Below are positions 51,049 through 57,395 of a stretch of 64,000 bases of DNA, piece after piece. Every line of letters starts with the position of its first letter. Position 1 is the first letter of the stretch. The position numbers and the translations under genes were made by a program. The DNA lies in the NCBI RefSeq assembly GCF_002778275.1, contig NZ_NESG01000002.1, forward strand, positions 310,001 through 374,000, written 5' to 3'. A model generated the notes under the pieces. That model was given only the letters and a program-made list of their open reading frames with translations, did not search any database and was not told the origin of the DNA. Source of the stretch: Limnohabitans sp. G3-2. Lineage in GTDB: Bacteria > Pseudomonadota > Gammaproteobacteria > Burkholderiales > Burkholderiaceae_C.

Positions 51049-51510
51049 TTATTTGATGTCGATATCCAAATGCTTCATGCCTTGACGGCCTTGCAAATCT
51101 TCCACACGCAACAAAAGTTGGTGTGATCCTTTGGGCAAATTGGCTTCTTTGACGCTGATGCCTTCGGCCGTGATTTTGGCTTCATTCACCAAACGCTGAG
51201 TGATGTCGAGGCGCAGTCGGCCGTACAAAACCTTGAAAGTTTCAGGACGGACCGAGCTGGAGCCAGATGGCAGGAACAGCAATTGAATCGGTGTGGGCGA
51301 TGCAACAGGGCCATCCAATTTGGGGTGAACAACCTCGATTTGGGGGGCGCCCGGTACGGGGCTGACTTTGGCGGTGAAGGCTTCACTGGCGGCCTGTGAG
51401 GCCTGCATTTCTTGCAGCGAGACCAGATTGAAAGCGTGGACTGGAGCCGTGAATGTCCAAAGGCTCAGCGCCAAAACCGGCGCTTGAGGCCACAAGCCAG
51501 CACGCATCAT
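51049..51510 (-). CDS. secreted protein of the caspase operon (paralogue of 54795-55229)
   Basis: 153 residues with a signal peptide (cleavage near Pro-Val-His-Ala at ~26). The rest reads as one beta-sandwich-like domain: a conserved Phe-x-Pro, a Lys-x-x-Tyr-Gly-Arg-Leu-Arg-Leu-Asp-Ile-Thr segment, and a late Pro-Lys-Gly-Ser-His followed by Val-Glu-Asp-Leu-Gln-Gly-Arg-Gln-Gly. The same spacing of motifs occurs in the first gene of the operon, so the two are probably paralogues. It overlaps the OmpA-like gene by four bases. Function unknown. Confidence 0.78.
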   Translation of the reverse strand: MMRAGLWPQAPVLALSLWTFTAPVHAFNLVSLQEMQASQAASEAFTAKVSPVPGAPQIEVVHPKLDGPVASPTPIQLLFLPSGSSSVRPETFKVLYGRLRLDITQRLVNEAKITAEGISVKEANLPKGSHQLLLRVEDLQGRQGMKHLDIDIK

Positions 51511-51998
51511 GGCACCAAGCTGATACGAACTCTGCGGTTTTCGCTGGCCAGTGGTTTTTCGGGTGTCAGCAAGTCGCTCGCTCCTTTGCCCTCGGCTTGG
51601 AGTCGATCTGCCCCCACGTTTTGCGCGATCAAATAAGCCTGAACGGCCGAGGCGCGGCGAGAGGACAACTCTTGGTTGTAATCGGCCTTGCCTTTGGCAT
51701 CGGTGTGGCCTTCCACTTTGAACTTGAGGGCACCCAAGCGCTCGCTGTTCATGGCTTGGGCCAGGTTGTCCAGCAAGGGTTTGCTGCTCGCTTGAAGGCG
51801 GGCCGAGTCGAAATCAAAGTTGATCGACAAGTCCACATTCACCGGTTTGGGGGCCAAGTTTCGCAAACTGCGGGTAGCCGGTGGTGCCGGTGGCGTGAGC
51901 TTCTCGATCAGATCGTCTTTAGAAGCTTGTTGCACCAGCTGGGCCGATGCGGATGCGCTGACCAAGACCAGCGCCAAAGCAAGGGTAAAACGTTTCAT
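51507..51998 (-). CDS. OmpA family peptidoglycan-binding protein
   Basis: 163 residues: a signal peptide ending Ala-Ser-Ala-Gln, a short linker, and an OmpA C-terminal domain with [25 protein letters not shown] and Glu-Asn-Arg-Arg-Val. These contain the conserved Asp and Arg that bind diaminopimelate in peptidoglycan. There is no beta-barrel. It overlaps both neighbours by four bases, so it is translated with the caspase protein and may anchor the system to the cell wall. Confidence 0.9.
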
Positions 51999-55311: not shown

Positions 55312-55374
55312 TCAGTTTGACAGAATACACAAATCGGTGCGCAGATGTGCCATAGAGACAGCAGGAACACTCAG

Positions 55375-57395
55375 ATGTCATTGACCTTCTTCACCCCCCA
55401 GCCCCTGCGCTTGTTGTTCGGCTGGACAGGCCAATGGTCCTGGCTTGGACGTTTTTTTGCCATGGTGTTGACCACATGCCTTGTCCTGCCGGCCCTGGCG
55501 CAACCTGTCGGTGGAAATATTTACAAAGGTTTTTGCCTATGGGTTCGGGTAGCAGTGTGGCTTTACCGGAGGGTGCATGGCAAGTTATCAATATAAGTTC
55601 ACAGTCATCTGGCGGAAATCCTAACCCTCAATCAATTTTTCAAGCCAATCAGCGCGCTGATTGGGAGGTGTATTCACTTAAGAACCAACAAATTGGCGCT
55701 CTCGTGCCTTTTCTCGTCGTGCGGCAAACTCTTAATTCTGTGCGTTGGGGAAATACGAATTGTTTGTCAAATTCGGCAAGCCAATTCATGGTCAATGAGC
55801 ATGGCACGCGGAGCAACGAACTTCTTAATAAGTGCTCTCGGTATTTTTCTATTGGCAATTTTGATGAATGGAAAACAGGGAAGTTTTTCAGAGAAAATGA
55901 AAAACAATGGTGGTCTGAAGCAACAAAAAATATGCCAGATTTGGCAAGCGGTAATAAAAATATTTTCTTACTTGAAATGCAAGTTCAAGTTTATAACGGT
56001 AGGGGTATTCGTCTGGAGGCATTTCTTTTACCACCCAGAGGGGTAACGGTCGCCAAGTTTAAAGATGAATTCAAAGCTGGCAAGTTGAGGCCAGAGCACC
56101 AACTTTTGTCTGGCTGGACCTCGATTTACATGGAGTCCATACAGCAGAGTTATTTCAACAAAAAACCTCAGCCGATCATGGCTCTGGCTTATCCGGTGAA
56201 CTCGGATGGGCAGACGCCAGCAACACCTGCAGACATCCAAATGGCAGCCGCTGCCCCCGCCACGGAAGATGCCACCGCCGATCGGGTAGAAAAAGAGCGT
56301 GAACAACGCACACAAGAGGTTATCCGTGAAATGGAGACGGCAAGCACCCATCGACCCCAGGCCAAGCCACCTGCACCCGCAACGGCGCCCGTGCTGACTG
56401 CGGCGCAGACGGTCAAACCCGCACCCGTGGTCAAGCCTGCGGCGGCAACACCAGCAACGCCAGCAGCGCCGGCCCCTGCACCTGTGGCAGACAACTCTGC
56501 GCAGCTGCGCTTTGAGCAAGAGCGCCGCGCCATGGATGAAGACAGGCGCAAAATGGCCCAGCAACTGGAGGCCATGACACAGATGCTGGCCAAGCTGCAG
56601 CAAGAGAATGTGGCCGCCGCGGCCGCTGCCAAGGCGAAAGAGCAGGCCGCTGCGGCGCCTGAACCCATGGCGCCCAAAGAGCCCATGACTTATGCCAACC
56701 GCAAGGCCTTGGTGATCGGCAACGACCTCTATGCCCATGTGCCCAAGCTCAACAACGCAGGCGCAGATGCCAATGCCATGGCCAAGTCTTTGGAAGCGGT
56801 CGGCTACAAAGTCTTCAAGCACCTGAATTTGACCGAGAAACAATTCAAACAGGCGGTGCGCGACTTCCGGCAAAACCTCACGGGCGGCGACGAGGTCCTG
56901 TTCTTCTACGCAGGTCACGGTGTGCAGTTGGGCAATGCCAACTACCTCTTGCCCATCGATGTGCAAGGAGACCAGGAAGACCAGGTCAAGGACGATGCCA
57001 TCTTGTTGCAAAAGGTCTTGGATGACCTCGAAGAGAAGAAAACCAAGTTCGCCTTGGCGGTGATCGATGCCTGCCGAGATAACCCATTCAAGAGCAAAGG
57101 CCGCGCGATCGGTGGGCGTGGCCTGGCCCCCACATCCGCAGCCACCGGTCAGATGATCATGTTTTCAGCCGGATCAGGCCAACAAGCCTTGGACCGCTTG
57201 GGCGACAACGACAAAGAGAAAAATGGCTTGTTCACCCGCATCTTTGTCAAAGAAATGGTCAAACCCGGTCTTTCCGTCGACCGCGTGTTGCGCAACGTTC
57301 GCAATGAGGTGGTCCGCTTGGCCCGGTCTGTGGGTCACGAACAAACCCCCGCCTTGTATGACCAGGCGATCGGTGAGTTTTATTTCAAACAGTAA
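55375..57395 (+). CDS. second secreted caspase-like protease, apparent frameshift near 55530
   Basis: The signal peptide (from ATG 55375 with AGGA upstream, cleavage near Ala-Leu-Ala-Gln) is in one frame. The rest, from 55539 to the stop, is in another. The two join if one base is added in the T5 run at 55530-55534, giving ~674 residues. Without this the gene would start at 55539 with no signal. The first ~220 mature residues are AT-rich in DNA and of no known family. An Ala/Pro-rich linker and a coiled coil follow. The C-terminal caspase domain has Tyr-Ala-Gly-His-Gly and Val-Ile-Asp-Ala-Cys-Arg-Asp-Asn-Pro-Phe as the His/Cys dyad. It is divergent from the other caspase operon, so joint action is likely. 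Confidence 0.85.

Follow-up and report, generated by a model that had tools for sequence, protein, structure and literature searches.

What do the caspase genes of a six-gene cluster in Limnohabitans sp. G3-2 belong to, and where would their products act? Most discussion of bacterial caspases and CHAT proteases treats them as effectors in the cytoplasm. The cluster occupies positions 51049-57395 of the 64,000-nucleotide stretch of contig NZ_NESG01000002.1 analysed here (hereafter the window), which comes from a genome of 3.25 Mb in 25 contigs. According to the list of open reading frames (ORFs), it comprises five genes on the minus strand, P5-P4-P3-P2-P1 in order of transcription, and a sixth, P6, divergent from P5. 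The original prediction, made from the letters of the window, saw in the five minus-strand genes an undescribed caspase system of the cell envelope. Comparison across genomes narrows this: the conserved core is P5, P4 and a protease of clan CD, not the five-gene set, whose other members, P1, P2 and a second caspase, are additions seen in a Limnohabitans-like form. That the core represents a conserved envelope system is strongly supported by the sequences compared.

A conserved core around P5 and P4

The co-occurrence was found through searches with P4 and P5 that were blind to the proteases. Searched with P4 alone, 5 of 120 family genomes have a match, and a P4 profile finds it in 15 of 60 genomes of the same genus and in 21 of 300 genomes of the order, 10 of the latter near full length; fragments and matches to the ribbon only (1 of the 5 and 11 of the 21) were not used. 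A P5 profile, built from a smaller P5 set (A5), recovers 29 loci from genome contigs of 84,980 species, five of them in genomes that gave seeds to the profile, and P4 is present in each. Among 299 genomes of the phylum, P5 occurs in the host genome, in another of the same genus (G087) and in seven more, all outside the class of the window. Six of the seven (6.9-8.8 Mb) belong to one genus and the other to a different family, and the eight loci taken from them lie beside CHAT or C14 genes. A tblastn search of plasmid records with P5 gives two, from Bradyrhizobium japonicum and Variovorax paradoxus, each beside an annotated CHAT gene. The next gene in Variovorax is annotated 'zinc ribbon domain-containing protein', and the Bradyrhizobium plasmid suggests that the seven out-of-class genomes are Alphaproteobacteria. 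In viral contigs, 52 stretches fit a search pattern and none is a P5 relative; P4 was not found in phage records.

A uniform count covers 46 loci, 45 of which hold the 46 P5 genes, with P4 within 300 bp in 44. A clan CD protease is encoded within 5 kb of 43 of the 46 P5 genes, of C14 type at 24 and TPR-CHAT at 19, and of both types at none. These loci cannot be counted as independent: Limnohabitans and close kin supply about a third of the 45, and a single genome (G577) supplies two. Six duplicates of named loci (L010, L038, L039, L041, L043 and L044) were left out of the co-occurrence, motif and export counts. A distant P5-like match (L121) was excluded from the 46, as it scores 85.5 bits with the P1 profile vs 58.2 with that of P5; neither P4 nor a protease was detected at its locus.

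Gene order varies between lineages. In Limnohabitans and near relatives, P6 is divergent and P5-P4-P3-P2-P1 follow where the contig is long enough; all six genes are also present in Limnohabitans radicicola (strain JUR4, locus L049, identified in a named scan). At one locus (L060), P3-P2-P1 are found on the opposite side. A second lineage within the order (L040, L042, L054 and L055) has P5-P4-P6-P3-P2 in a row on one strand, and in Azospira, Oryzomicrobium and others a TPR-CHAT protease of ~1,050 residues is found beside P5-P4. The three linked CHAT proteins that were scanned reach 178.7, 167.7 and 174.9 bits with PF12770 and have TPR matches. With a P3 profile and a limit of E <= 1e-20, 3 of 229 genomes from the class give a match: the host genome and two others, which score 76 bits.

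The association is more than chance, since these gene neighbourhoods are found again in other lineages although P2-P5 are there only some 28-61% identical. The share of loci from Limnohabitans and its kin would fit a cluster held together by chance or genus-level synteny rather than by function as a system. This explanation is very improbable: the cluster recurs in further families of the order and also in a second class of the phylum, with changes in gene order and protease family, and in our view the uniform count refutes it. The expectation that the five predicted genes would be found together in other genomes was borne out, both by the six-gene Limnohabitans loci and by the rearranged rows of the other lineage; the conserved unit is the P5-P4 pair with its protease.

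The P4 and P5 families

P4 and P5 constitute two undescribed partner families. P5 and P1 share 27% identity and both have starts resembling signal peptides, in agreement with the two related secreted proteins first predicted. Neither has a Pfam match in the scan of window proteins, and the zinc-ribbon matches of P4 are all sub-threshold. Pfam scans of 33 members of each family (with cut-offs compared for the first member only) give nothing convincing: for P5, three Ig/PKD families, each matched by one member (best E 0.0015), and for P4, zinc-ribbon families in at most five members (best E 5.4e-4). Profile searches of the PDB gave a best E of 0.17 for P5 and no match for P4. The P5 model is a small beta-sandwich with an N-terminal tail (predicted local distance difference test, pLDDT, 84.1), for which Foldseek returns weak immunoglobulin (Ig)- or PKD-like matches only (best E 1.2e-3, TMq 0.38).

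P4 is a membrane protein without a signal peptide. Its AlphaFold2 model (pLDDT 81.5, predicted template modelling score, pTM, 0.57) shows a zinc ribbon, a long helix, about four membrane helices and a C-terminal helix, and a simple count of hydrophobic segments gives 3 to 6, mostly 4 or 5. The ribbon cysteines do not vary (Table 1), and the description as a zinc-ribbon membrane protein stands; the five conserved residues listed for the membrane region are invariant in 33 sequences and lie within or beside helices. The zinc ribbon is probably on the cytoplasmic side.

Caspases and the OmpA-like protein

P3 and P6 are both members of family C14. Peptidase_C14 (PF00656, cut-off 21.4 bits) scores 61.1 bits in P3 and 115.8 in P6, each has the His-Cys dyad, and P3 also carries DUF4384 (58.2 bits). 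An EF-hand-like loop is kept in P3 as D-x-[DN]-x-SGAVS-[LM]-x-E in 16 listed sequences, five of which were missed by the first search pattern and identified by reading the sequences; a 17th, L094, has SGAIS. Together with an export-like start, these features match the secreted caspase with EF-hand and DUF4384 that had been predicted. The residues Asp53, Ser106 and Asp156 of P3, invariant in 8 of 8 aligned sequences, stand where TbMCA2 has Asp95, Ser156 and Asp211, which are among its S1 residues in the excerpted text of PMC4357240; the correspondence is by motif position, not structure. The Ala-Gln linker of P3 is probably variable in length through slippage, because the linkers of relatives differ: there are about 34 AQ units in L052 and 22 AP units in L050, and none by the same pattern in the others listed. 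Across its 3.25 Mb the host genome yields four C14 matches, and two of these lie within the cluster. It also carries a separate C14 gene on contig C19 (L014, 7786-9285), with a caspase domain 87% identical to that of P6 and a different N-terminus; P4 and P5 were not detected in the 16 kb of that locus.

P2 is OmpA-like as predicted (PF00691, 78.3 bits, cut-off 27.2). It falls below the equivalog cut-offs of named OmpA lipoproteins, among them YiaD (86.6 vs 175) and Pal (54.8 vs 125.35).

Export

Export was judged by a crude start score that picks the best start, not by a trained predictor. By this score, signal-peptide-like N-termini are found in P5, P3, P6, P2, P1 and the CHAT relatives, the lowest values being those of P6 in the window and several fragments. 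Applied as a pass/fail test to the proteases of the surveyed loci, those of both plasmids included, it is passed by 33 of 41 complete C14 and by 14 of 15 complete CHAT copies, 47 of 56 in total. The catalytic dyads are present in 41 of 44 C14 and 18 of 21 CHAT copies, and five of the six misses are fragments. Export-like starts thus scored persist despite sequence divergence, pointing to an extracytoplasmic location of the products. The claim that nearly all parts carry export signals holds for P1, P2, P3 and P5 by this crude measure; P4 has none, and in P6 of the window the signal is out of register (see below).

A shared Thr-Arg motif

The motif Thr-Arg-[Gly/Ser/Ala] is common to P5, P2, P3 and most of the linked CHAT proteases, where it sits in a tail, linker or loop. 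In the P5 tail (consensus TRGITRGPG), R48-G-P is invariant in 33 of 33 sequences and R44 is present in at least 90%; residues 41-50 of the model have a mean pLDDT of 68, vs 82-95 in the remaining blocks, counted from residue 21. P2 relatives have TRSL or TRGL ahead of the OmpA domain, and in P3 [TS]R[GSA] occurs twice between the catalytic Cys and the next conserved block. TR[GSA][ILVM] is found in 15 of 15 P2, 17 of 17 P3, 29 of 42 P5 (ORFs kept by an overlap rule, hence not 46) and, at any position and with fragments included, 13 of 19 CHAT proteins; it is found in none of 43 P4. The background is 15 occurrences in 150,921 residues, in 15 of 478 flanking proteins, and the four other OmpA genes of the host genome have none in the OmpA frame. 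P1 lacks the TR motif and has, in 11 listed sequences, a conserved Lys two columns before the Arg of P5.

The CHAT loop was compared in 17 sequences, a set that leaves out the fragments of L062 and L070, and one of the 17, the first piece of L063, has no loop. Of the 16 linked copies with this variable-length loop, 14 have TRG in it (L088 and L089 are nearly identical), as does one of the two plasmid copies. Among six control CHAT proteins not beside P5, two have the loop motif (L116 with TRG, L119 with TRS), and both come from genomes with three strong CHAT matches apiece and a lone P5-P4 pair (L065 and L059, respectively).

Metacaspases prefer Arg or Lys, as described in the available portion of PMC4357240, and the same preference is given for the prokaryotic caspase homologues in the consulted text of PMC6426788. 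Because metacaspases cut after these residues, the TR motifs are candidate cleavage sites. When Arg is required, the sharing of a 4-mer by P5, P2 and P3 has P = 0.002-0.0075 (0.2-0.75% of shuffles). As evidence for cleavage sites, the motif match is suggestive.

A possible cleavage relay and its alternatives

These observations can be read as an extracytoplasmic proteolytic system, in which the constant P5-P4 pair works with an exported C14 or TPR-CHAT protease that cuts at the shared motif; we consider this not quite probable. The exported protease would cut after the Arg of TR motifs, activating itself by a cut in the CHAT loop or, in P3, in the linker after the catalytic Cys. It would also trim P5 and P2 at their N-terminal tails. 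For P3, the EF-hand-like loop may allow envelope calcium to act as the switch. Both Arg cleavage and the calcium switch are proposed for P3 because of the preference of metacaspases, their calcium requirement (widespread, not universal, in the excerpts of PMC4357240), the conserved S1-type residues and the loop. P4 would dock P5 and pass a signal across the inner membrane, in either direction, coupling the reaction to the cytoplasm, while P2 would tie it to peptidoglycan as a wall anchor. The Limnohabitans form adds a second caspase, the wall-binding OmpA protein and a P5 paralogue. A fuller version is a caspase cascade outside the cytoplasm: P4 and P5 would control interchangeable C14 or CHAT proteases, self-activation and cutting of partners would occur at Thr-Arg|[Gly/Ser/Ala], and envelope damage or calcium entry would lead to a response at the wall, or to death. 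We regard this version as unlikely as a whole.

A number of results weigh against the proteolytic reading, in which the relay is a plausible prediction. Three P5-P4 loci (L059, L065 and L095) have no protease nearby, and at L093 and on the Bradyrhizobium plasmid P5 and a protease are present with no P4 detected. Foldseek finds no fold match for P4 (best E 0.6). Nine of the 56 complete proteases fail the export test, three of them in an odd locus, L057. In this assembly the good signal peptide of P6 (from ATG 55375) and the body of the protein are in different frames (region 55375-55600), while relatives have them in one; the predicted second caspase is divergent and has its domain, and the frame break could stem from the assembly or be genuine, relatives carrying intact copies. 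TR[GSA][ILVM] is found in only 4 of 27 P6 and in 0 of 12 P1, and the loop motif is missing in the Variovorax CHAT, L064 and L071. The choice of the motif followed inspection of P5, P2 and P3 and preceded the test. Taken over all reduced 4-mers, sharing by P5, P2 and P3 is reached in 4.1-14% of shuffles (P = 0.041-0.14), depending on threshold; 3-mers show no significant sharing, and CHAT proteins do not conserve the full 4-mer.

From such modest significance, and from the several members that lack the motif, it may be argued that TR[GSA] is a docking or export feature, or a chance match, rather than a cleavage site, leaving the gene association real and the relay not. Like the proteolytic reading, we consider that argument not quite probable. 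The places where the motif occurs speak against it: the P3 linker after the catalytic Cys, the CHAT loop of variable length, and the tails of P5 and P2. So does the control, where the motif singles out, among six unlinked CHAT proteins, one from each of the two P5-P4 genomes considered.

If proteolysis does occur, its purpose is a further question. P4 might sense attack by phage, predator or toxin, or membrane damage, upon which exported caspases would dismantle the envelope, as a periplasmic counterpart of the cytoplasmic caspase and CHAT effectors. The patchy occurrence of P4 within the genus, the exchange of protease families around a constant P5-P4 pair, and generic PADLOC 'caspase' matches for P3 and P6 are consistent with this, as is the membrane-plus-caspase logic of the EACC1 conflict system in the portion of PMC7159879 seen. 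Against it, no PADLOC model matched P1, P4 or P5 (the neighbouring genes were not scanned for defence models), the six proteins have no toxin-like Pfam domain, and dedicated OmpA and Ig-like partners would also fit maintenance; such a role in alarm or death is doubtful. A maturation or quality-control protease, trimming P5, P2 and other proteins for assembly of the wall or outer membrane, with no part in death or defence, would account for motifs in the N-terminal tails of exported partners, for the OmpA wall anchor and for the conserved export-like starts. It is likewise no more than a tentative explanation: P4 is missing from most relatives, the five matches among 120 family genomes including one fragment, so that this is no general housekeeping pathway.

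Relation to known systems

Searches of open-licence full texts gave no description of the gene set P1-P6, in line with the original prediction, which did not recognise it as a named system. With PADLOC, P2 matches only MotB/ZorB models, through its OmpA fold, P3 and P6 match the one generic caspase model, and the system-specific partner genes of known anti-phage systems were not found in the cluster.

P3 and P6 resemble the prokaryotic caspase homologues (orthocaspases or metacaspases) in their C14 domain and His-Cys dyad, and the Arg/Lys preference in the excerpts of PMC4357240 and PMC6426788 fits the TR motif. They differ in being apparently exported and tied to P4 and P5, whereas MaOC1 adjoins a toxin-antitoxin pair (PMC7935541, in part). 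A 2012 survey (PMC3501461) reports, in the sections available, OmpA in 14 metacaspase operons and prokaryotic metacaspases with N-terminal helices that may be signal peptides. Both traits recall the cluster, but those sections describe no P4/P5 pair, CHAT exchange or motif. In the EACC1-caspase system, a one-helix protein is coupled to a caspase and self-proteolysis is proposed (available text of PMC7159879), so that a membrane partner beside a caspase is shared with P4. However, the EACC1 partner has a single helix, while P4 has a zinc ribbon, a coiled coil and about four helices, and P5 is Ig-like with a signal peptide; neither is a single-transmembrane protein of that kind. With the model of the EACC1-associated caspase (NF047832), P3 scores 42.5 and P6 50.9 bits, far from the curated cut-off of 140.

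Craspase contains a TPR-CHAT protease, and proteases of this type are used by the loci of Azospira, Oryzomicrobium, Bradyrhizobium and others. In contrast to it, the linked copies have export-like starts and sit with P5-P4.

Organization of the window locus and variant loci

Coordinates are collected in Table 1. The prediction of overlapping or closely spaced genes was accurate: adjacent minus-strand genes overlap by 4 bases, except that P3 and P4 are separated by 20 bases, or 29 with the P3 start of relatives. The P3 ORF extends over 51995-53953, and the relatives start at the place of ATG 53944. The P5 ORF (54795-55370) is counted from GTG 55370; by comparison with relatives the true start is most likely ATG 55229.

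Table 1. Features of the caspase cluster, in window coordinates; locations and functions of products are predicted.
Feature	Position	Strand	Basis
P1, putative secreted Ig-like protein, P5 paralogue	51049..51510	-	ORF; comparison with P5
P2, predicted exported OmpA-like protein, peptidoglycan-binding by family	51507..51998	-	PF00691; signal-peptide-like start
P2 motif TRSL, N-terminal tail before OmpA domain	51864..51875	-	TR[GSA][ILVM] in all P2 scanned
P3, predicted exported C14 caspase with EF-hand-like loop, AQ-repeat linker and DUF4384	51995..53944	-	Pfam; signal-peptide-like start; dyad
DUF4384 domain of P3	52169..52408	-	Pfam
12-bp tandem repeat coding for P3 Ala-Gln linker	52536..53017	-	40.2 copies, 94% matches
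P3 EF-hand-like calcium loop, predicted	53150..53185	-	conserved pattern in relatives
P3 motif T201-R202, candidate self-cleavage site 2	53339..53344	-	T201 and R202 invariant 8/8
P3 motif T170-R171, candidate self-cleavage site 1	53432..53437	-	R171 invariant 8/8; L042 has Ser for Thr
P3 catalytic Cys158 (DACHSG)	53471..53473	-	invariant 8/8 aligned
P3 catalytic His108 (SGHG)	53621..53623	-	invariant 8/8 aligned
P4, zinc-ribbon, coiled-coil membrane protein, no known family	53974..54798	-	Pfam, alignment, model
P4 membrane region, about four helices, conserved H114, D122, R129, D177, E191	54169..54513	-	alignment; AlphaFold2
P4 zinc ribbon CPxC-x10-CxxC	54724..54777	-	cysteines invariant 33/33 aligned, window included
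P5, putative secreted Ig/PKD-like protein, no known family, constant P4 partner	54795..55229	-	start score, alignment, model
P5 motif TRGITRGP, tail between signal peptide and Ig-like domain	55080..55103	-	alignment
P5/P6 divergent intergenic region, short, with 9-bp repeat	55230..55374	.	repeat at 55277-55311
P6, second C14 caspase	55375..57395	+	signal peptide from 55375; body ORF 55434-57395
P6 caspase domain, dyad GHG / DAC present	56700..57371	+	PF00656

The repeat between P5 and P6, AACAATTGG, is present in 3.9 copies and could vary promoter spacing. Beside the cluster, at 46805-50072, there are porin-like, glycoside-hydrolase-like and LacI-like genes, judged by eye from their translations and probably a sugar-use operon.

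Some other loci have unusual arrangements. At L093, P5 adjoins a C14 caspase, and the same genome (G577) also has a CHAT-P5-P4 locus (L087). L064 (7710-13202) has a CHAT gene between two P5 genes, with P4 beside only one. L057 (5830-16392), from a metagenome-assembled genome labelled Comamonas, has a single C14 gene ahead of P5-P4 and, behind the pair, three ORFs that match C14, at least one of them a fragment. At L128 (2801-5842), the Variovorax CHAT that neighbours P5-P4 is only remotely related to the others (70 bits) and has no loop motif. For the loci L059, L065 and L095, the idea of a hidden CHAT gene was rejected, tblastn having found none there. Elsewhere in their genomes, CHAT genes give four matches for L059 (one weak and overlapping a C14 gene) and three for L065. 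The L095 genome (G420, of the same genus as the window, 85% complete) has three C14 genes elsewhere and no CHAT match, and the fetched stretch holds no protease.

Significance

Bacterial protease systems of the caspase fold are themselves known; what is new here are the two undescribed partner families, the predicted envelope location and the exchange of C14 for CHAT. To our knowledge, few natural substrates of bacterial caspases or CHAT proteases have been identified. The motif names candidate substrates, and what extracytoplasmic bacterial caspases cut thereby becomes directly testable. The occurrence of the same partners with either a C14 or a CHAT protease suggests that two families of clan CD can fill one role.

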